A stretch of 64,000 nt of DNA from Hyperoplus lanceolatus (taxonomy: Eukaryota > Chordata > Actinopteri > Uranoscopiformes > Ammodytidae). The notes under the pieces are model-generated. The model was not told the DNA's origin. It was given only the letters and a program-made list of their open reading frames with translations, and did not search any database. The stretch covers positions 12,980,501 to 13,044,500 of the forward strand of contig CM049404.1 in the NCBI GenBank assembly GCA_026929865.2, given 5' to 3'. The position numbers and the translations under genes were made by a program. Shown here piece after piece: positions 20,971 to 50,602 of the stretch; the first letter of the stretch is position 1; every line of letters starts with the position of its first letter.

Positions 20971-23323
20971 ATGAAGAGGAGGGCTAAAGCTATGGGTGCA
21001 ACACAGAGCTCGGATCCAGTCCCAAGACGGAAGTCTTCAGCCACAGTCCCGTCCAACTCGCTTTCACAAGGAGATGTAAGTGCTTTTCATGAATCCAGGC
21101 TCAAACTGTCTGCTCACGGAGATTCACATGAAGGCAGCCTGTTGTAGAGGTCCCATGATGTGTGTGACTGTGTATTACAACCAGCTGTTGCTTGTTTTGT
21201 CTGAACACTGTAGGCCTATTACCCTTTAATCAGACGTAGGGAAATATAGTGTGCACTATAAATGTCAACTGTCAGTCTTTTCCAATCCTTTTTTCTTAAT
21301 TTCAATCTTCATCAAATAGCTCATTTGGTTCCTGTCAGGCTATTTGTGGAAGGTGGTGAATATGGTGCCTCGAGGGAGAGGGGGAAAACCCAAAACGATG
21401 ATTCATAAAAGAAAAAAAAATCTAAAATGGAAAGATAGCCTACACAACTGAGTAGCAAAATGTGGTTTTCAACAGACTGTAAAAAAGAAACATTGGGTTT
21501 TCAACAGCTTTGTGAGGAGGCCTATTGAACAGCTTTGTTTTGCTGAATTCTTTAACTATTTGCTGACAAAATGCTGATGTAAGCTTTATTATCCGTTAAT
21601 GTAATCAGTGGGAGTGAGTGGGGGCATTGGTCAAACGTCAGTTCTTGGCAAAAATGTAACTTTGAGCCTAGTGTCTTATCTGTTCATGTCAGATGTTAGC
21701 GGTTCCTCTGGAGATTCTGGAGGAGATCTTCCTGAATGTCCCTGCCCATCAGGTGGTCCATGTTTGTAGGTTAGTGTGCCAGCAGTGGAAAGAAGTGGCC
21801 GACAGTGAATCTCTGTGGAGAGAGAGGTGTAGAAGAGAAGGATATCGGCTCCGTGACGCTTCCAAAATACCCAAAGACTGGAGGTTGTTCTACCACTTGT
21901 GTAAGAAGAGAAGAAATCTTCTCAACAATCCAAAAGGAGAACGTAAGAACCCCCAAAATGTGGCTGTGGTGAGGCCATTTTTTTTTTACCCTGCAGTACA
22001 ACGAATGAGCTGTGCAAAAATGATTCTCTTACAAGCCCTATCTCTTTTACAGATAAAATGAAGGACTGGCAGATATTGGAGAGTGGTGGTGATAATTGGA
22101 AAGTGGAGGGAGTTATGGAGCCACATCCAAATGAGGCAGTCCAGAAAAACTTTGTGACCTCTTTTGGGTGGGTATTCACCAGGACTGGTCCAGAAAAACA
22201 AATGGCAATAATACGACATGCTACAATTTCATGAATATATTTATTAAGTAACTACAACTCTTTCTGTTTCCCGAAGCATGTGCAAGAAGTCACAGCTGAT
22301 TGATTTGGGGAAGGAAGGTTATATCCCATCGTTTATGGATCACTTCCAGCCAGACATCAAAATATCTGATTGGTGAGAAGAATACACGTCTATAGGCAAT
22401 ACTCCCACAACTCCAAGTCATAACTACATCGATGGCAAATTGAAAAATCCTGATTTTTAAAGTCAGGTTTTTTTTTTGCGGTAAACAACCCTGTTTTGGA
22501 AAATAAAGAGCATGGTATAATTGGGGCATGATTCTTAAATTTAAGCCTATTACTGTACTTATGAGATGAATATATTGCATTACTGATAACCAGTATTTTC
22601 AGTCAACTATAAATGAAGGAGGCCACTGTTAGTCATGTGTAAAACACATCCTTTCCATGTCTAGTGTTTATTTTATGTACTTCGATACTATGTGTTTACA
22701 CTCGTAAAGTTACCCACTAGCCTCATAGTGCAATGTGTTCATGTATTAGACTTTTTTTTAGGATATACATACTATGCTATGATTTTTACTCAGAACAAAA
22801 TCAAATAAACAAAATGCATTCAGAACTTCTAGAAATGTGTTTCTACCGCTTCGGCCCCCAAGTAAACAATGCTCAACAAGAAACTGGCCAGCTTTTGAAC
22901 CTAATCGTTGACCCCTTATCTATTTGTACATTTATTAGGTATGCACCAAGATTTGATTGTGGCAGTGAATATGAGATCTGTGTGGAGTTGCTGAATCAAA
23001 GAAAGACACCCATCCAGACATTTGCCCCTGAGACGATCTACTTTGAGCAATGGAACGATCAGAAATGGAATCAGGTATGTTTACAAGGGATGAGGCATTA
23101 ATCAGATATGATGGGAGTTCAGATGAGGCACAATACCCTTTGACAACTCTAGACTCACTTGTTTTTTGTTTACCAGATGAAACATGTGTTCCAAAACTAT
23201 GGAAAGGGAGTGAGATACATCCGCTTTACTCACGGAGGCAAGGACACACAGTTCTGGAAAGGATGGTATGGCATTCGCGTCACCGACAGCTGCGTTGAGA
23301 TATGTCCAGGAACGGACACATAG
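20971..23323 (+). CDS. F-box/FBA-domain protein of the FBXO2/FBXO6/FBXO44 group, complete, 6 exons
   Basis: Exons: 20971-21075, 21693-21942, 22053-22167, 22277-22372, 22939-23074, 23177-23323 (849 nt, 282 aa, or 275 aa from the second ATG). The F-box runs over about residues 36-80 (VPLEILEEIFLNVPAHQVVH, CRLVCQQWKEV, SLWRERC). The FBA/sugar-binding domain covers about 115-280 with MCKKSQLIDLGKEGY, FQPDIKISDWYAP, GVRYIRFTHGGKDTQFWKGW and RVTDSC. In mammals this group forms SCF ubiquitin ligases that bind high-mannose N-glycans of misfolded glycoproteins; the FWKGW loop is in the glycan-contact region of FBXO2. The FBA sequence looks nearest to FBXO44 (DCGSEYEICVELL), then FBXO6. Two in-frame ATGs exist, at 20971 and 20992. 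The second has a strong Kozak context and would give an MGATQS N-terminus, a candidate myristoylation signal. The gene ends tail-to-tail with cdc42. Confidence 0.92.
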
Positions 23324-31099: not shown

Positions 31100-31359
31100 T
31101 CGACATTTTATAATATAACAATAATATAATGTGTATAATATGAAATACAGTAGTAGCGCAATACTGGCATATCTTTACCATATTTCATCATGTAATATCT
31201 GTGAGGTTGTGATGGTGGTGGTTGTTATCACTGTGGAACAGAACACAAAGAACACATAGCAAAAATCTAGCCTACAAGTCGGAGTCAGTTAGATATTTTT
31301 TTTTGTCTTTTTGTGTCAGCAATAAATCAGTGCTTTCAAAGCAAGAATATCAAGTATAC

Positions 31360-31862
31360 CTTGGTTGGAGATGATCAAACTAACGCCGGTGTAGACGTTC
31401 CCTCTACGCCTGTAGATGACACACCAGTACATGTCCTGATCACTTTCTCTGAGAGAAGTCATAGTCAGTGTGAAGACTCCTGCCTCCTTATTATCTGCAA
31501 TTGAGCTCCTGTCATTTTCCAGCTTCCCGGGCGTTCTCACCATTTCAGTGCACAGCCCATAAACTGGCCCTTTGCACCAGTACTTTGAGTATTTTCTGAG
31601 CCGATTTTCGTACTGACAAGAGAGGGTCACAGATCCCTCCTGGGCTGCCCATACCATCACTGGAGCAGACAGTTGAGCTGAGTCCACTGCATACATTGTT
31701 AGCCAGAAGAGACAGAGAAGTGGAGCTGCAAAATAAAAAAAGAACATTTCACGTGATTTAAGTTATTCATTTTCCCAAGCGTACTCTTCCCTTGCACAGT
31801 ATTGCAGTATTTTTCAAAGAGCGGCTATTACCACTGAACATGATCGCTGAGTTCCTTGTCAT
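31360..31862 (-). CDS. CD300/CMRF35-like receptor, leader and Ig-V exons (apparently incomplete)
   Basis: Exon 1 is 31832-31862 (MTRNSAIMFS plus one base) with a GTAAT donor; exon 2 is 31360-31725 after a TTTTGCAG acceptor. Together they encode a leader (APLLCLFWLTMYAVDSA) and one V-type Ig domain: VTLSCQY, KYWCKGPVYGLC, DRSSIADNKEAGVFTLTMTS, SDQDMYWC. The extra cysteine pair in KYWCKG...LC is typical of the CD300/pIgR family of surface immune receptors on myeloid cells and of teleost relatives. A donor follows ISNQ at 31359, so more exons (stalk, membrane span, tail) should follow toward lower coordinates. None is certain. A hydrophobic frame near 29.85 kb is a weak candidate. The gene may be a truncated copy or may use distant exons. 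An alternative start is the internal MFS. Confidence 0.75.
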
Positions 31863-34317: not shown

Positions 34318-37300
34318 ATGGGCAAGGTACTGTTTGTGACAGGTAAGAAAGTTCTGCTCTATTTGAAAAGAATGTTCTCAATGTGCAGCAGATGTCTTGT
34401 GGTTGCTATTTCCAGGATTTGGATATAAGATATAATGCATACATATATGTAGCGGAGGCTTTTGAGCACTTTTTGCAATAACTTTCTATTTTTCTTGAAG
34501 ATAACAATGTGACTTTTAATTTTACAGCTCTGGCCCTGCTGCTGCATGCGCAGCTTGGTAAGTAATTAATATGGGAAACAGTGTGCATGTTTTTTTGTCC
34601 ATTTTTATTGCTAGAAATTGCATTTCATGTATTTGTCAATAAAAGTATAGCTTTCCTTTGATTCAAAGGCTCAGCCTACATACTGTCATGCTACTTCACG
34701 AACTGGGCACAGTACAGACCGCCTCCGAGCATTTATATGCCCACCGACATCGACCCATGTCTGTGTACCCATCTTCTGTATGCCTTCGCCACCATAAAGA
34801 ATGGCCATTTGGCCACCTTTGAGTGGAATGATGTGACTCTTTACAGTCAGTTCAACGCCCTGAAGAACCAGTGAGTTACTGAAACCATTTGTTTCCTCTT
34901 GTTCTTCATAGGAAATAACCTACATAAACACATGTGTTTAAGTTGTCACTGCAGTGTAAAATGTCATTTTATTTGGCAGGAATGGCAACCTGAAGACTCT
35001 TCTGTCTGTTGGAGGATGGAACTTCGGCTCTACTGGGTGAGATAGTCTAGAGATATCTGCTGAGTGGGCACTCCAACAGTGGAGGTCTTATGTTGTACAT
35101 TCATTTCTGTTCCCACATTAGGTTTTCACAAATGGTGGGGAGCCCTTCCAACCGTAAGACGTTCATCGACTCCGTCATTAAATTCCTGAGACAGTATGAG
35201 TTTGATGGGCTTGACATTGACTGGGAGTATCCAGCCAACAGAGGAGGCTCTTATAACGACAAGCAGTACTACTCTGTTTTCCTGCAGGTTTGTTTGCCTT
35301 GTCTGGTTTTCTGCTCAGTTTCCGGTTTATTTTTTCCTCTATATGGTTAGCAAAAATGTCATACGCAATAGCAAATATCACTGTTCAAGCTTGCGATGAT
35401 TGTTTTTGGCCACAATAATTCCCCTGTGGGGTTTGTACTGTGCCTTGCCAAGTCTAAGGTACATAAAAGCAATATAACTCATATCACCCGACCATGTATC
35501 AAATCATGAAGTTCAGTTACTACTAAATATTTTATATCTGTTGACATTCAACAGGAGATGAAAACTGCCTTTGAGAATGAGGCCAAGCAGAGCAACAGGG
35601 CTCGTCTTCTGATGTCTGCTGCTGTGTCGGCTGGAAAGGACACCATTGATTCTGCTTATCAGATTCCCCAGCTTGGCCAGTAAGCATTTGAAGCATGTTT
35701 GGTGTGTCCAATCTCAACCACAGCAACATCATGGGGCACAGTTGAACAGAACAACTCTGAATCTCACCCCTTAGTCTAAATGATCAATGAAAACCTTTTA
35801 ATGCCGGCATCTTAACCCTCTTCCTTTGTTGTCTGCCTCACCCAGGTCCTTGGATATGATCAACGTCATGACATATGACTTCCATGGCTCTTGGGACCCC
35901 ATGACTGGCGAGTGCAGTCCCCTATTCAGAGGCCCCCAGGACCAAGGTGGCTTCATCTACTTCAATGTGGTGAGTACATCCTCAAGAAAATATTTTTTCA
36001 TTGAACAAAACTTGGGAATACATTGCAGTTTCTCTGTAACAATCTTTATAAGCAACTATATCAAAGCATCCGCTAAAGATATCTACTTACAGATCCATGT
36101 ATGTTTCCAATGCCGTTTTTCCCCAGGACTATGCAATGAACTACTGGAAGAGCCAAGGAGCCCCGGCTGAGAAGCTGATTGTTGGTTTCCCTACATATGG
36201 CAACACATTCACTCTTAAGAGCGCTGCTAATAATGGTCTTGGAGCAGCTATTGCTGGCGCTGGAACTCCAGGAAAGTACACACAAGAGGCTGGAGAACTC
36301 GCTTACTTTGAGGTAGGTTTCCTTAAAGCGGCTACGAGTAACATTTAAATATCTTTTAAACAGCCTCATGTTTCCTCTGATAATCATAAATGACCTTTAA
36401 TAGCAAACCAGACCATCAGTGCAAAGAAAGACGTTTTTAAATAGTTTTTATTACTGCATTTGATCTGGTCGTACACCCAGTCCGATTTTCGGTTCACGGG
36501 GCTGCACCATAAAAGAAAAAAAAGAAAATGCAATGAAGAAAAGCTAAAAGGGAGAGTGATGGTCGGGCGGGAGGGCGTTGCCAAGCAACGTATACACAAT
36601 TTCACGCAGCGAAACTAGACTGCAGTGTTTACTCCTAAATGAATGAGCGGTAGCCTACTAAAACAAAGTTTACTTTGCCTCACCAGCATCATCAGATGAC
36701 CATTATTCATCGGAAATAGTCATTATTTACAACATAAACACATTACCTCATCGTGATCCATACTAACTAACTGCCATCTCTCGTTCATTCGCTTTGTGTG
36801 AGGACACGGGGACTCGTTCAGCTCCGTGAGAGGTGACAATGCATCAACTCATTGCAATCAGGTGTGTTTAGCACTTGCTGGCATTAGTTGATGCTGTGTC
36901 ACCCATAGACTCACGGAGCCGTAAAGAGTCCGGTGCCCTCACACTTTCAACACACGGACACGCCACGCACCATATTGCTTCCTGATTATTTGAATCTTGC
37001 ACTCCCTGCACGAGCTAGAAAACAGCTTCACGACAGCTGGCGTCGTAATAATACTACCGCTTTTGTTCAAAGGTGTCGCCAACGTGCCGACTTACTCGTA
37101 GTAGCTTTAATGTTTTAATAAACCAAGAAATAACTAGTTTGAATGTTGACTGTATTCTCTTGGGTTGGTTTACAGACTCCAGTTAATAAGAAATAAATGA
37201 GTGCTTTAGGTTGTCATTAATGCACTGCTTTGTGAAATTACAGATCTGCGACTTTTTGAAAAATGGAGCAACGCAGGTGTGGAACCAGGCCCAGGATGTG

Positions 37301-38126
37301 CCATATGCCTACAAGGGGAACCAGTGGGTGGGCTATGACAACATTAAGAGCTTCCAGACCAAGGTAACAAACAAGCACCAAATACTTATTTGACCATTTG
37401 ACAGGCCAATGTTTGCTGTTGAGAATAACCTCTGACATACATTTTTTTCAAAAATCTTTCTACATAACCCTTAAGAATTATACTAAGTATTACAAAATAT
37501 GGCAGGAGAAAATGTATTCAATGTTTTGTATTTGATCTGTTTGTGGGATCGTCCTACAGTTATCAGCTAACAATGTAAAGTTCTTTTTTAAAATGTCCTG
37601 ATTCTGGCTGGCTGTAGGTTGACTGGCTGAAGAAGAGCAACTTTGGAGGCGCCATGGTGTGGACCCTCGACATGGATGACTACAAGGGCACCTACTGTAA
37701 CCAGGGGAAATACCCACTCATTAATGTTCTCAAAAAGGGTCTCAATCTGGAACAAGCATGTAAGCCTCTCTACGCCTTGACCATTGATAATAAGTGTAAA
37801 CAATCTAAGATTATTGTATTAAAGAATTTCTTTGTGTTTTTCCAGCCTGTACCCCACCAGCTACTCGCCTTCCTCCAATCCCAGGAGCGAGCACAACTCC
37901 CAGTAGCAGTTCTGGAGGAGGATCCAGTGGTGGCAGCTCCTCTGGTGGGGGCTCTGGTACCAGTGGCATGGACAGCGGCTTCTGCACTGGAAAGGCTAAC
38001 GGCATGTACCCGGACCCAAAGAACAAGAACCAATTCTACAACTGCAGCCGGGGCAAGACCTACTTTCAGAACTGTGCCGCTGGCCTGGTCTTTGACAGCG
38101 CCTGTTCTTGTTGCAACTGGTCCTAA
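34318..38126 (+). CDS. chia: Acidic (mammalian-type) chitinase, complete, 11 exons, 485 aa
   Basis: Exons: 34318-34342, 34528-34557, 34669-34870, 34980-35036, 35122-35287, 35555-35679, 35846-35969, 36127-36312, 37244-37363, 37618-37759, 37846-38126 (1458 nt). A 21-residue signal peptide ends at GSA, so the enzyme is secreted. The GH18 barrel has SVGGWNFG and the catalytic [11 protein letters not shown], with Asp136, Asp138 and Glu140 at the same numbers as human [13 protein letters not shown] and [12 protein letters not shown] supply the substrate-binding Tyr/Asp and Trp. A Gly/Ser linker (about 410-435) leads to a CBM14 chitin-binding domain with six cysteines, from [11 protein letters not shown] to CSCCNWS. 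All catalytic residues are present, so it should hydrolyse chitin from food or parasites. Intron 8 contains a TTAA transposon that begins about 10 bp after the exon 8 donor. Teleosts carry several chia paralogs and which one this is cannot be told. Confidence 0.96.
36327..37106. mobile_element. Non-autonomous TIR transposon, TTAA target site (copy 2)
   Basis: Begins AGCGGCTACGAGTAACAT and ends with the inverse TTACTCGTAGTAGCT. TTAA flanks both sides (36323-36326 and 37107-37110). It matches the element at 8856-9771 in reverse complement but is 136 bp shorter. It sits in chia intron 8, very close to the exon 8 donor. Confidence 0.8.
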
Positions 38127-38285
38127 AGCTGAAGTTATAGATTGACTGGTTAAATGTTAAAAAGAATGCAGGATAACTCTGTTCATTTGTTTCTCAGTTC
38201 TCAGGGATCTGAGTACAAAGTCCGACGTCCTTCCACACTGGATGTTAAACAATGTAAAACCCAGAGGCTGTCCTTAGCAAAGAAA

Positions 38286-43620: not shown

Positions 43621-46600
43621 CTGTCTCCTTTCTCTGTCTATGAACAGAATTTGTATAAGTCAATGTGAGTTGTTTAAAGTCTGAAGTTCAGGAGGGCCAC
43701 TGAGGAAAGACAATATGTGCGATATGACATAACAATGTTTAGCTTGACCCTGTTTGAGGATGGATGTCAACCTGCAAAAAAATTGGTAGATGGTGTTCAC
43801 CTCAAGGCTTCTTCATGATTAAGATATTTGGGATTCTTGTACTTCACTGTTCCTTGAATTTCTAAAAAGTGTATTCTGCAAAACAGTATGGAGCCCAATG
43901 TGTTGTATTACTTTACTTTATGATATAAGAAGGAATGATTACCTAATCCCTTTAACAATTACATCAAAGTGGCAAGGCTCAACCGGTTGTGACCAAATAT
44001 GGGCATCCAGCAAGGAAGGAAGAAAACTGTGCAATTTAAGAAATCCCAATACAGTCTCATTATTCAAACTGTGAATTTAGTCAGATTAAACTAACAATAA
44101 ATCACAGACCCTTGCAAAAGGCACTGTAGGAGGCTAACGTATAAATATAATTTTTTAAGTGTGCAATTTTATGCTCTCTGTTATCAATTAATTAACTTAT
44201 TTTCTTTTAGTTCTTATATTGTTTCTGCAGTGACCCAATTACTTAATTTTTCATTGTTCTCTAAATAAGCATGATGCACATCTATGCCATCTAATTTTAA
44301 AGACCTACTTCTTTCTCTCTTCTCTCTGTACTGAATCCGGCATGAACTGTATTTGCAACTGTATCACACAGCCTATCAAACTAAGCTGTGTAACTGATTT
44401 GCCAACAATGTCCTGCAAGGCTGAGATGTTGGTCAGGTTCTAAACCATGAGAAACATTATGTGTTTATACAAAAGGCACTCATTAACAACCACTTCCTTC
44501 TTTGGAGATAAAGCAACACAGAGGTGACTACTTCAGTTTATTGTCAACTAACATGATCTTAGAGGTGTGTAAAGCAGTGTTAAAAATCAACAGCAACCTG
44601 TGGTTACTAAAGTAGGACATCCGTTTTTGAATGAACTTATTATTCACACATGTTAGATCGGGGAGGGATACTGCATGTGTTTCCTAAGAATCTGGAATTT
44701 GTGTACTTGAATGAGTAAGTGCAAAGCGCAAAGCGCAAAGCTGATGCAAAACTTAACAACTAATTGTATGAGAAATTTGAGCAGTTTTTCCTCACTGCTT
44801 AGTATATCTAAAACAGCAACAGTCTACATTTAAAGATGCCCTTATTCACGTTTTTAAATCACCCTTTTGTAAGATGCATATTGAACCAGGATTGGCTTCT
44901 AGTTGTAAGGTCAGAGCAATCCTGCTCATAGCTGTTCAGATTTAAGGCGAGCAGAGAAACAGCCAGTCAAACAGCCTCTTAGTGTCAAACTCTCATCATC
45001 ATCATTATGCACAGTGAAGCAGAGGCATGCATCCAAGGGACTGATTTTGAGTAAGTGCATTTTCAACGCACAATTCCAACACTAGATGGTGCACAAGTGT
45101 TGCATTCATTTACAATTCCATAAGGTTTTCCATTACAGAAACAACATATTTATCATGCGTCTCTTTACAAGAAGTAAGTGAAATAGAATAATGGAGGAGG
45201 CATCACATTGACAGGTAATAAATTATACAACAAAATGATAGCTGCTTTTAGGTTTTTCACAAAAATACTTATTGTTGCTTTCTAAAACATACACGAAAAC
45301 GCCATCTCCTTTTCAGTCTCACACATGGTTTGCTGGTTGCAGCCACATAAAGATGCAACACATAAGTGACAGTGTTCAAAGTGGATAAAAACAAAGCATT
45401 GCCTTGCTCCTCTCTGTCTCATCTCCATAGGCTGACATTTAGCCAACCCTCAATCAGAGACCTGTGCCAAGACAATGTGACAGGAATCATAATCTGATCG
45501 GTCTGTTTTGTCTCCATGCTCTTCTCCCACTGCTGCTATTTGCTTTTATCTATATACTGTGTTTCTTAAGGGTCCGGAGAGCCTGCGAAAAAAAAGGAAT
45601 CCCAGGTTTCCATAAAATAATCAACATGGTAAGACTCACCAGGCCCAATGTATTCCTTCATAAGCCTGCAGATGTGTTTATGTAATCATATGAGAGCCAG
45701 CAACATAACCATTTCAATGGCTGCGAGAAGGAGGAAGTCACAATATGTTTGTGTATTATTACTTGTCAAGTCAGACAGGCACATATGATTCAGTATATGC
45801 AAAGTGAGTGGATTAGCTAAAGTAGACATGACACAGGCTTAAGAGGAGATTTATCTGTCACCTATCCCACATTTCTCCAATCGGTCCCCATAGCCCCGGG
45901 TAAAACTGCCCTGTAGTGCACCCCCTACACATCTCCTCAGGACAAAAATAGAGCCAAGGACATGTGGTATGCAAACAGACACGGCTGCAAGGCGAAACAA
46001 GGCTATTCTGGAGGCGCTGCGCTATCAGACTAGATGCTGCTGAGGACGCCAATATATAAAGCACTTTAAAAAGTTAGTACCTGAGTGAATAAAAAAAAGT
46101 TATCCAAGTAGAAATATTCAGAAGAGAGAGAGAGAAAATGGAGTAGTACGTATTTTATTTGTAACCTGCAGTGCTGCATGTGGTTAGGGAGGGTTAAGTA
46201 AAAAAAATTAAATAATAATAATTTAAAAAAGTAATCTTGACTTTTCATACTGTTGACATTTTCAACATTTAACCAAGACTATGACTTTCCCAGAACTTTA
46301 AAAGGATTGCCAAGTGCCAAGTGCCGATTCGTACACTTTTTTTCTTGGTGTTATCATTCATCGTGATCATAGTGGCACTGGCCAGGGTGAAACCCCTTAT
46401 GAACCTGCTTGCAATGAAAAGGCTTATTTTCATTCAATAGTACTGGCTCTACTCTACTCTACTCTACTCTACTCTACTCTACTCTACTCTACTCTACTCT
46501 ACTCTACTCTACTCTACTCTACTCTACTCTACTCTACTCTACTTTACTCTACTCTACTCTACTCTACTCTATTCTACTCTACTCTACTCTACTCTACTCT

Positions 46601-47141
46601 ACCTGGTACCTGGTTATTGGTGGACCAACTCACATCTCCTAACTTAATGAAAAAATCACATTCTAAAGTTTATCTGAAGCAAAAATGAGGCCTCAGCAGT
46701 CTAATGGGTAAAGTTACAGCCTTGTTACTATAACAATTCCCTCTCTGTATTTCCCTGGACAGTTATTATATGCTGAGCTGTGGTAGAGCAAAAATAACAT
46801 GAACAGTGAATTTTATAGAACAAATATTTAGAAGAGTTACTTAGAAAGATAACGGCAATGACTTCATAATGGGCTGGGCTTCATAATAACTTCAAAAACG
46901 TTTTGAAGGACTTTTGTTCCATTTCCATAATATTCAACTTACTTTAATAAAACAATAGGCATTATGTTTTCTGACCTAACTTATTTGCATAATGTATAGA
47001 GGACAGCAGGATAACAAGGCATGTACTTGCAGGAGATATCTTTTAATACAATCCCACACTTATCATGCATCTTCGAAGAATGCTTCTTGTATTCAGATTT
47101 GTGAACATTATGTCTTTCAGAACATCATTTGTAGGCTCCTG
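43621..47141. other. Gene-free spacer with a pentanucleotide array
   Basis: No recognisable exon. Open frames at about 45.5 kb and 45.9 kb show no domain or splice logic. The ACTCT array at 46447-46602 is the only defined feature. Confidence 0.45.
46447..46602. repeat. (ACTCT)n pentanucleotide microsatellite
   Basis: About 31 units with a few TTTAC/TATTC variants. A Tyr-Ser-Thr-Leu-Leu periodic frame is the repeat read in one phase. Confidence 0.97.
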
Positions 47142-47492
47142 GGTAACGTAATAAGGACCTTATAAGATGCTTATTAACATCAGTTTGTGTTAATAAGACT
47201 ATATTTAAGTGTTAATAATAACACAATAAACATGTTTACTGTGTGATTATAAGACTTTTATAAGCACTTATGAGAAACTTCTTAACTATTTATTGATTGC
47301 TTAATAGCATTAATGAAAGTCTCATGAGATTCTGATAGCTGTTAATAAAAGAGTTACAAACCCATGTATTGAGTCTTACTAACTTACCTATTATGTCATA
47401 GTTAAACCTTTACTAAGCATTGTTTGTTCCTTTATGAAGGTGAACACACCTTTATTATTTGTTTATTAGCAGTTAACTATGTTCTAAGAACA

Positions 47493-47770
47493 TAGCGAGA
47501 ACAATGCTTATTAAGGTTAATAAGTCCTTTATTAAACAGGTAATAATGCATTTTGAAGGTACTGGATCTAAAGCGAGAACAATGCTTATTAAGGCCAATA
47601 AGTCCTTTATTAAACAGGTAATAATGCATTTTGAAGGTACCTGATCTAAAGCGAGAACAATGTTTATTAAGGTTAAAAAGTCCTTTATTAAACAGGTAAT
47701 AATGCATTTTGAAGGTACTGGATCTAAAGCGAGAACAGTGCTTATTAAGGTTAATAAATCCTTTAACATA
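47493..47770. repeat. 78-bp tandem repeat inside the left TIR
   Basis: The motif AGCGAGAACA recurs at 78-bp spacing, with units starting at 47493, 47571, 47649 and 47727. The right TIR has only one related unit, so the expansion occurred on the left arm. Because 78 is divisible by 3, long repetitive open frames appear on the minus strand; they are not genes. Confidence 0.92.
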
Positions 47771-48248
47771 CACTTTTTAACAGTTAATAAGTACTATATC
47801 TTGTCAAGGTGGATACAATGTGAATTAAAAAAAACTACATGTAAATACAATGTTAGAGAGGTGAAGCACAAAAACTTACTTTTAAAGAAAAAAAAAACAC
47901 TTAACAACTGTGCAATTGTAAACATGTTTGTTTGTTTCCCAGAACTTCCATGAACAACATTTTACTAAATGTAAAAAAATAAATACCTTTGTAAAATAAA
48001 AATGCTGCCTGACATCAATTCAAGTGTCCAATGATTAAGACTATTAATTAAAAATATTAAATGAATAAGAACAATTAAACGAGTAGAGCAAAAAAACTTC
48101 AATCAAACAATAATAAAAAAAAACTCTGTTGTAGGTAAAACAATATAAAACGACGTGGGGTTGTATGAGTTGCTTCTGCATATTGAATCTGTAACCTTAT
48201 GGAGATGGCAATCCTCACTAGAGGAATTTGGGCGAGACGTTGCTGTAT

Positions 48249-48544
48249 CAGAAGTCAGCATTATACTGTTGCAGATCGGACAAGCAGAAAACCACATACA
48301 ACTATATAGATGCTAACCCAGTGGTTCTCAAACTTGTTTTGTCATTCCCCACTTTGGAGGTGGGAATATTTTCAAGTCCCACCGTTCCCCGATTGTGTCA
48401 ACAAAATAGTAAGAAAATTGGTCAGTCTTAAAAGTTTAAAATGTATTGAAATAAAATCAAGTAATACAATTCAAAAATAGATAATTAAAAAAAAAAAGCC
48501 TTCTTCTGCTGGCCCCCTCTGCAACAGTATAATGCTGACTTCTG
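48249..48544. repeat. 27-bp perfect inverted repeat enclosing a hAT-end fragment
   Basis: Positions 48249-48275 and 48518-48544 are exact reverse complements over 27 bp (key core CAGCATTATACTGTTGCAG). The right copy is part of the CCDC106-like exon, so exon sequence has been duplicated in inverted form. The enclosed 242 bp begin a hAT-type end at 48319. Confidence 0.9.
48319..48430. mobile_element. hAT (Charlie-type) terminal fragment
   Basis: CAGTGGTTCTCAAACTTGTT matches the classic hAT/Charlie terminal sequence CAGTGGTTCTCAA. No opposite terminus was found, so this is one end only and its inner limit is arbitrary. Confidence 0.5.
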
Positions 48545-49285
48545 TTATACTTCGTCTTCCTCTTCCCATCGTCTGAGGAGGAGTCAGAGGAGTCAGACGA
48601 CACCGGACTTGAGCCCCAGGGGAAGGTTGAGTCAGGCTGGTCTTTCTTGTTACTGTGTAAAGACAACACAAAGAAACATTGATCACAATTAGACAGATAG
48701 CAGACAGGTTATACTAAGCATTTAAGCGATTTGGACATGGAATCTGAGAAAAGGGGTGCAGTATCAAGTAAATTTAGTCTGTAATGGTGACAATTGTTGG
48801 AAAAAAGTAAATATTTTCTTTCATTCAGATAGTTGTCCCTTCAAGAAATCTCTCTCCGTTGTCAGGTCTTTTATTTTTACATCCTGGCATTCTAATTTAT
48901 ACCTGGCCAGCTCATGTTTATATTTCTGTAGACCCAGTTTGGCAGTTAGGACAATTTGGGCAGCATCTGGGTCAGCACAGAAATAACCATTCAGCATTAC
49001 TTTGCCCCTTCCTGACAAGCTAGCATGACACAACTGTTAATAGATACGTTTGGTTGCAGTTTTTATGATAGTGTAAGCTAAACGTTAGCTCAAAAAAGAA
49101 GCTCACCAAAGCTTCTGAAAGAAAGTAATGTAAGCTAGGCAAACAACTAGCAAGCTAGAACCAGCTAACGATACTAAAGCACTACATTCTTAAACTTACC
49201 AGAAGAGTCATCCTCCAGTTCGGACCTCACCCTCTTTATTTTTCAGAGACCTGGTTTGGGGTGCTGACTGTGCTGACTCCGACAT
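48501..49285 (-). pseudogene. CCDC106-like coiled-coil gene fragment, frameshifted and C-terminally truncated
   Basis: Minus-strand pieces: 49200-49285 (ATG at 49285, GTAAG donor), about 48830-49018 (after a CTTGTCAG acceptor) and about 48501-48650 (after TTTACACAG). Readable parts are MSESAQSAPQTRSLK, RVRSELEDDSSGRGKVM, a coiled-coil stretch with KIKDLTTERDFLKGQL, and SSDSSDSSSDDGKRKT ending EGASRRR. The ERDFLxxQL, Ser-rich and ASRRR order resembles CCDC106, a nuclear coiled-coil protein reported to bind CK2 and p53. The conserved C-terminal half of CCDC106 is missing; the frame runs into a poly-A/T tract. The ATG frame and the frame of the later exons differ by one base at an A-run near 49240, and the second piece has no GT donor. 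It lies wholly inside the TIR element. Confidence 0.55.
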
Positions 49286-50244
49286 GTTCTCCTTACTTTC
49301 GTGAAACACTTTGTCAAGCATGGCCGTCAAGCTGGCGTCAAGCCATCAGCGACTTGCATACACGGAACTTCCGGTTTTACAACTACCTTCAAAATAAAAG
49401 CCCTTTAAGGATCTGATTTGAGGCACAAAACCGATCATACGAGTCATATTCATCATAGATTGTGAAAAATATACTACGTTCTCGGGGCATCTCATTTTAA
49501 CACTCACACAACATGTGTGCGCACACATAGAGGTGAAAGAATCACTTCAGAGCAAAAACAAATATATTAAGCACTCATTATGCTAGATGCCAAAAGACAA
49601 CATTTTGGAAAGAGGGATGAAAATCAGTGACTTTAGCCAACTAAGATATGGCGCTGCAAACCAAACTCAGAAAACTCATTTTTGAAGGTACTTCAACAAG
49701 AAAAACATTAAAGCTAATCAAATACCTTCACCGCTCTAACATTGTATTTACATGTCGTTTTTCTAATTCTCATTGTATCCTCCTTGACAAGATATAGTAC
49801 TTATTAACTGTTATTAAGTGTTTAATAAAGGACGTATTAACTTTAATAAGCATTGTTCATAGAGCATAGTTAACTGTTATTAATTGATTTATAAAGATGT
49901 GGTTACCTTCATAAAGCAACAAACAATGCTTAGTAAATGTTTAACAATGACATAATAGGCAAGTTAGTAAGACTCAATCAATAGGTTTGTAACGCTTTTA
50001 TTAACAGCTATCAGAAACTCATAAGACTTTTATTAATGCTATTAAGCACTCAATAAATAGTTAAGAAGTGTCTTATAAGTGCTTATAAAAGTCTTATAAT
50101 CACACTGTCAACATGTTTATTATGTTATTATTAACACTTATATATAGTCTTCTTAACACAAATTAATGTTAATAAGCATCTAATAAGGTCCTTATTACCT
50201 ATTTATTAAGGCTTATAACAAGAACCTTAATATAAAGCGTTACC

Positions 50245-50602
50245 GGCTCCGGTATTCAGGGGCGGTTCTACACGGGGGGGGGGGGAGGGGGCAAAGGGGG
50301 CAGCGGCCCCCCCCACTGAAGAGCCTTGTCCCCCAGCTGCCGCCCTGACTTTTGCATTCTCAAAAATGTACTTGTAAGAACAAACCGCCACTATGTCAAC
50401 AAGCCACTCAAATATTTGAAACAAACAATACATTGAACAAAAGTAAATTATTTTAAATCTAATCTTATGTCCTGCCCCTCAAATACTTAGACACGGCCCT
50501 GCATCATCAGCGATCACACAGTTTGTCACACACAGCGAGTCAGCGCGCTGCTGTGCCATGCAGCCCGGTGAAGAGTAACTGACCTGCTCCGAGCATCTTA
50601 AG
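50245..50602. other. G/C-run repeat-like segment between two transposons
   Basis: Contains GGGGCGGTTCTACACGGGGG and runs of C at about 50306-50316. It looks like another degraded repeat, but no termini were found. Confidence 0.4.

Follow-up and report, generated by a model that had tools for sequence, protein, structure and literature searches.

The window, a stretch of 64,000 nucleotides of Hyperoplus lanceolatus DNA, hosts at positions 47142 to 50244 an element with long terminal inverted repeats (TIRs). This element is a transposon, and its 3-kb form has moved to many sites in the genome. We propose, with a probability of roughly 0.6, that the window copy is a non-autonomous deletion derivative of a two-gene transposon of the Merlin superfamily, carrying a transposase and a CCDC106-like gene. 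This reading is based on a last exon of the gene that lies beside the same TIR elsewhere, on Merlin frames near the gene, and on a second family of elements with a gene of its own. These observations suggest that the CCDC106-like gene may be a component of the transposon and not the product of a chance capture.

Ends, arms and target site

The tips of the element are GGTAACG (47142-47148) and CGTTACC, which stops at 50244. The features of its ends are as follows.

47142..50244, no strand: whole element, 3103 bp, GGTAACG...CGTTACC (from the sequence and from copies in the genome)
47134..47141, no strand: left target-site duplication, GGCTCCTG (from the sequence and from 8-bp duplications at other copies)
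50245..50252, no strand: right target-site duplication, GGCTCCGG, 7/8 against the left
47142..47866, plus strand: left TIR arm, holding a 78-bp spaced repeat array; about 46 bp missing near the tip relative to other copies
47494..47772, plus strand: 78-bp spaced repeats of the left arm, repeat family D2 (from self-comparison of the sequence)
49726..50244, minus strand: right TIR arm (from the sequence and genome matches)

An earlier note, made from the letters alone, had called the 8-bp flanks near-identical, and they do agree at seven of eight positions. The inverted arms match at 90% identity between 47148-47492 and 49854-50198, and the match extends inward to about 47866 and 49726 at 88-95%, giving arm lengths of about 725 and 519 bp. 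Near the tip, the left end of the window copy is some 46 bp shorter than its right end. All 39 of the other full-length left-end matches that were scored start at query base 7 or 8, and in six copies with left tips examined the element end lies 46 bp further out than the window alignment.

Immediately left of the element there is a long (CTCTA)n pentanucleotide array (46447-46603). The window also hosts part of an F-box gene (a frame at 21672-22061 with an F-box domain, PF12937, E 1.8e-10), an Ig V-set frame on the minus strand (31316-31762, PF07686, E 1.5e-12) and a glycosyl hydrolase 18, chitinase-like region (35802-38145), where one frame matches PF00704 (E 4.3e-8) and a second piece that was tested gave no match.

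Copies in the genome

The assembly holding the window (G000, 807 Mb) was searched with each arm and with the interior, a check that the earlier note had proposed, and many loci with matching TIRs, 8-bp duplications and the same gene pieces were found. The first look gave 379 candidates for the right arm, 172 for the interior and 385 for the left arm. The best 40 of each that were scored reached 96-100% (right arm, window copy included), 96-100% (interior) and 95-100% over the main length (left arm), and 30 locus sequences were examined for each of the right-arm and interior lists. The three lists of 40 fall into 64 clusters, 24 of which have both arms; the interior is also present in 12 of these 24.

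The exact 23-base element end occurs at 171 genome sites (82 + 89) and the backward control at 0, so these ends are not due to chance. Among 100 ends listed there are at least 40 facing pairs, 2.8-12.7 kb apart, with 20 of these ends unpaired; the number of facing pairs expected by chance genome-wide is 0.18. Six other copies were tested for target-site duplications. Three have perfect 8-bp duplications that differ between sites (CTAAACAC, AGATTTTG and ATTTTTTG), one agrees at 7/8, one reaches 6/8 only with a one-base shift, and one has none. The earlier identification of a long-TIR transposon with 8-bp duplications is thus well founded, given arms of 88-95%, 7/8 agreement in the window and 171 exact ends against a control of 0.

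The core of exon B (26 bases, at most 3 mismatches) is found at 119 genome sites, with 0 for the backward control. One hundred of the 119 sites were listed, and a tally on contigs C1-C8 used the 56 listed sites with 0-1 mismatch: exact-end pairs enclose 32, a single exact end lies within 8 kb of another 12, and there is no such end near the other 12. A listed exon B site is lacking in 7 of the 39 end pairs on C1-C8. In a sample of 36 copies, biased since these are the copies most like the window, the exon region matches the majority sequence at 98.7-100% in 35 copies and at 95.6% in the remaining one. The window-element family is young, with many copies, and the 3-kb form spread recently.

A gene remnant inside the short element

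Three exon-like pieces on the minus strand, with splice signals, had been described in the window copy, and all three were recovered: exon A with its GTAAGT, exon B with ERDFLKGQL, and exon C, Ser-rich and with EGASRRR.

49200..49285, minus strand: exon A of the CCDC106-like gene; donor GTAAGT at 49199-49194; frame broken in the window copy
48824..49011, minus strand: exon B, coiled-coil piece (...ERDFLKGQLSE); putative acceptor position
48490..48652 (end approximate), minus strand: exon C, Ser-rich piece; tail EGASRRR
48228..48290, plus strand: inverted second copy of the sequence 3′ of the last exon in loci L063 and L064 (from sequence comparison)

Exon A is open in 32 of the 36 copies, broken in 3 (the window copy among them) and was not found in 1. 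A GT donor after exon B is absent from all 33 copies where exon B was located (it was not found in 3 of the 36). As this donor is lost throughout and the copies are near-identical, the spreading form must have been an already broken gene, and its spread recent. The short form thus has neither the exon B donor nor the last exon, and the amplified copies carry gene fragments with introns. No transposase was seen among the open frames of the window copy, in agreement with the earlier note.

On their own the window exon pieces match the CCDC106 model, PF15794, only at E 0.0094-0.012 (at most 16.2 bits, short of the cut-off of 30.2 bits). The likeness to CCDC106 that had been read from them is therefore weak in the window itself, and its support comes from the intact exon L063 beside the same TIR (E 1.3e-29). 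The EGASRRR tail, which had been counted as a gene piece, is indeed found at the end of exon C. It also resembles, over 60 bp at 80%, sequence beyond the last-exon stop in L063, and because that match lies after the stop, the tail may be 3′-untranslated sequence joined on by a deletion.

Some further insertions were seen in this region. An insert of about 600 bp with inverted ends AGAGGACC...GGTCCTCT is common to L002, L003 and L004, at the exon A donor (window 49190-49194); in L004 it measures 613 bp and is matched at other loci that bear repeats. The inserts of the partial copies L010, L018, L024 and L053 gave no lead when compared with other loci. The segment 48309-48500 contains CAGTGGTTCTCAAACTTG, a possible hAT (Charlie-type) end, and it is present in the amplified copies whose alignments pass through it.

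A last exon beside the same TIR

There are 29 genome matches to PF15794. One of these, L063 (C3:139694), is an intact last exon with an open frame of 124 aa (104 bits, against the cut-off of 30.2). The left arm of the window TIR family starts about 0.3 kb downstream of this exon, at 88-95%, and its tip lies about 1.15 kb downstream. The exon is located inside the exact-end pair C3:128447-141152, which at 12,706 bp is the largest of the 40 listed pairs.

DNA of this last exon is found at four places in the genome. Besides C3, these are C16 (L064), with the same last exon and element interior in rearranged form, the exon A segment being inverted relative to the last exon; C6 (L078), where the frame is broken by stops and no element match lies within the 3.2 kb examined; and C1:43264397, a partial match. 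The earlier note had named an intact donor gene elsewhere without TIRs as support for its reading; no such close donor was found among these places, of which C3, C16 and C6 were read, and the ordinary CCDC106 genes.

Exons A-C were not found in the 2 kb examined upstream of the C3 last exon. Exon B is not among the listed 0-1 mismatch sites within the 12.7-kb C3 pair (19 of the 119 sites fall outside the listing), and exon A, searched with the L064 version, is not there among the best 40 of 157 candidates. The last exons of L063 and L064 differ by 2 synonymous and 4 non-synonymous changes (pS 0.028, pN 0.017), too few to decide whether the exon is under selection.

Two ordinary CCDC106 genes of this genome are about 40% identical to the element last exon, and the coil is followed by the Ser-rich piece in the same order as in CCDC106. 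The last-exon domain matches HTH_23 weakly (E 0.076) and, in a comparison with the PDB using an 8-sequence profile, the RsbU N-terminal domain weakly (E 0.003), neither match being decisive; the PDB comparison with a single last-exon sequence gave one match (E 1.4).

A second family with its own CCDC106-like gene

A second TIR family, with ends GGTAACACTTTA and TAAAGTGTTACC, was found at L069, L073, L074/L075 and L081, and it carries another CCDC106-like gene. Like the first family it has a TTA-rich arm, and its ends begin with the same bases. A perfect 8-bp duplication, AATGAATT, flanks L074/L075 (C6), and no 8-bp duplication was found at L081 (C13). Exact ends of this family occur 1105 times in the genome (559 + 546; control 0), and many of the listed facing ends are about 475 bp apart. 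One pair of facing ends lies 11.7 kb apart (C1:25581581-25593275), with no PF15794 or PF12762 match inside. A text search of the literature for the motif GGTAACACTTTA did not find it.

The last exon of the second family (L068, L069 and L073) shares 43-54% identity with the two intact copies of the first family, and the rearranged second-family copy on C6 is 40% identical to the intact first-family last exons; for the broken first-family copy L078 against the second-family last exon the values are 33-45%. A second-family end lies about 2 kb downstream of the L068 last exon. L069 has exons B, C and D colinear on a single strand, and exon B is followed by a GTAAGT donor. In either TIR family the last exon has its 3′ side towards the nearer element end. 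In a tree of 18 sequences, which is unrooted and built from short, in some cases truncated, sequences, four groups associated with repeats are separated from ordinary CCDC106 (support 0.92).

A third repeat family also hosts CCDC106-like last exons (L083-L086 and L088, on C12, C11, C1, C9 and C3). One in-frame stop is common to all five loci, four of which are no more than 1.5 Mb from the end of a contig. The inverted arms of L084 start near GGCTACGAGTAAC.

Merlin transposase near the gene

The Merlin-type transposase model PF12762 (DDE_Tnp_IS1595) has 11 matches in the genome, with 14 of 14 candidates scored. One of these, at C3:132723, is a frame of 166 codons with no stop, and it lies within the 12.7-kb end pair that also hosts the L063 last exon. 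Two more are head-to-head with second-family last exons, at 4.28 kb from L069 (C4:36549428) and 4.21 kb from L073 (C21:26793574), and a further match, C9:2914270, is 12 kb from the CCDC106 locus L067. The Merlin and CCDC106 genes are on the same strand at C3. A CCDC106 last-exon match lies within 13 kb of 4 of the 11 Merlin matches and of none of the other 7, a count made with 24 of the 29 PF15794 places (L071, L076, L079, L082 and L089, which are N-terminal, middle or split pieces, were left out). When the 11 matches were placed at random in 200,000 runs, three neighbours were never reached; C4 and C21, which belong to one family, should be counted as a single case.

Three transposase families were searched for in the 12.7-kb C3 pair: PF12762, MULE and KDZ. 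MULE (PF10551, 8 genome matches) and KDZ (PF18758, 18 genome matches) were rejected as sources of the transposase, as none of their matches lies in this pair.

Interpretation

On the two-gene reading, the full-length lineage would carry a Merlin transposase together with a CCDC106-like gene, made up of a coiled coil, a Ser-rich stretch and a C-terminal CCDC106 domain. Merlin transposase supplied in trans would cut at the GGTAAC ends, insert the element and duplicate 8 bp. Judging from its architecture and linkage, the CCDC106-like protein could be a transposon accessory, which probably dimerises by its coil and whose C-terminal domain may bind DNA or the transposase. A short form that needs the TIRs only, and that has recently spread, would then have arisen when the transposase, the last exon and a splice site were deleted. 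At C3, the Merlin frame and the CCDC106 exon may form one element; nested elements are the alternative there. Some results weigh against the two-gene reading. Exons A-C are missing from the 2 kb examined upstream of the C3 last exon, exon B is missing among the listed sites of the C3 pair, and 7 of 39 pairs lack a listed exon B site. In addition, 7 of the 11 Merlin matches lack a CCDC106 neighbour, gene orientation differs between C3 and C4/C21, one of the six duplication tests fails and another needs a shift, and the broken last exon L078 shows no element sequence in 3.2 kb.

The earlier note described the window copy as a Pack-type element, and left a choice between a captured host gene and a multi-copy CCDC106-like family that spreads in this way. 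Its observation of CCDC106-like gene pieces between TIRs with target-site duplications stands, and of its two alternatives the spreading family fits better and host-gene capture less well. Under capture, a TIR element (Merlin or other) would have acquired a portion of a host CCDC106-like gene in one event and then amplified, and the second family would have captured another paralogue independently. Such a history has some points in its favour: the accessible text of an animal survey counts 370 Pack-TIRs in 100 genomes, 8 of them in zebrafish (PMC8277862), CCDC106-like genes are multi-copy here with 29 PF15794 matches, the amplified copies are gene fragments with introns, and the broken last exon at L078 has no element match in 3.2 kb, beside the partial match on C1. 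We nevertheless regard it as unlikely. No intact, close, TIR-free donor turned up among the places with last-exon DNA, the intact last exon L063 is next to the same TIR, both families have the last exon with its 3′ side towards the nearer end, linkage to Merlin recurs (4 of 11 within 13 kb), and the repeat-associated families group together in the unrooted tree (0.92), short and partly truncated as its sequences are. Since the second TIR family has a diverged gene of its own, and Merlin frames are close to the gene in either family, the term "Pack-type capture" probably does not suit an element that we prefer to derive by deletion from a transposon with two genes. An ancient capture of a host gene, before the families split, is possible.

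It is also conceivable that the Merlin frames belong to unrelated elements nested in regions rich in repeats, and that the GGTAAC elements were moved by another superfamily. The C3 locus lies close to the end of its contig, and the strand arrangement differs between C3 and C4/C21, as such a chance neighbourhood might allow. This is quite improbable given that only 11 Merlin matches exist in 807 Mb, 4 of them near CCDC106, with 0 of 200,000 random placements reaching 3; moreover, GG termini and 8-bp duplications are Merlin features, and the C3 pair holds no MULE or KDZ match. The remaining idea, that there is no transposon and that the inverted arms came from independent insertions, a chance palindrome or a fold-back artefact, has next to nothing left to commend it. 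One of the six tested copies has no matching duplication, but two-ended copies are numerous, sit at different sites with different 8-bp duplications where tested, and include 40 facing pairs. The unrelated flanks that the earlier note had named as evidence against its own reading are contradicted by the same duplications and end pairs.

If the two-gene reading is correct, multi-exon gene pieces of host-like appearance can become numerous in an animal genome with no Pack-type capture of the usual sort. The abundant repeats that end in GGTAAC here (1105 exact ends for the second family) would also have a likely superfamily. If two diverged TIR families have both kept a second gene, this would indicate an accessory factor of Merlin elements, and that gene would be either the origin of CCDC106 or a side branch of it. 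A broader idea, which we hold tentatively and with some doubt, is that CCDC106-like proteins are an ancient accessory of vertebrate Merlin transposons, that the conserved CCDC106 is a domesticated descendant, and that this genome still keeps the two-gene transposons.

Comparison with known systems

Merlin elements are typically simple one-gene transposons. The text available of a Merlin survey describes the related IS family as having a single transposase gene, and judges an extra overlapping frame in one protist Merlin family to be due to chance (PMC8101967). The words "ccdc" and "coiled" do not occur in the survey, which names no linked gene of the CCDC106 kind, unlike what we find here. It gives Merlin GG termini and target duplications of 8-9 bp, and among its zebrafish families it names Dr A and Dr B. 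Our elements resemble this superfamily (IS1016/IS1595-related) in their TIRs, which start with GG in the window element and at the 171 exact ends, and in their 8-bp duplications (perfect in three of six copies, 7/8 in the window); a DDE_Tnp_IS1595 frame, which may belong to the element, also lies within the largest listed end pair. They differ in that the window copy has no transposase and in that its arms of about 725 and 519 bp exceed the quoted TIR length of 24-462 bp, a range that is descriptive and not a strict criterion.

The likeness to Pack-TIRs and Pack-MULEs lies in the multi-exon gene pieces between TIRs, the target-site duplications and the many copies. The differences are that no intact TIR-free parental copy was found and that the last exon occurs beside the same TIR elsewhere. 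Moreover, the accessible text of the animal survey counts only four Pack-TIRs with several copies in its reference genomes, apart from the Ssk-FB4 family of flies, and no Pack-MULE there (PMC8277862).

CCDC106 itself is said to reduce p53 stability (PMC6423756, as far as its available text goes). In a literature search, with most subscription papers outside its reach, we found no earlier report linking CCDC106 to Merlin or to teleosts, nor, going by titles and the openings of abstracts, one of a CCDC106 transposon. The gene in our elements differs from CCDC106 in that its last exon is about 40% identical to the two ordinary genes and the window pieces fall below the Pfam cut-off, yet it resembles CCDC106 in the order of its coil and Ser-rich pieces and in the C-terminal exon at L063, which matches PF15794 at E 1.3e-29.
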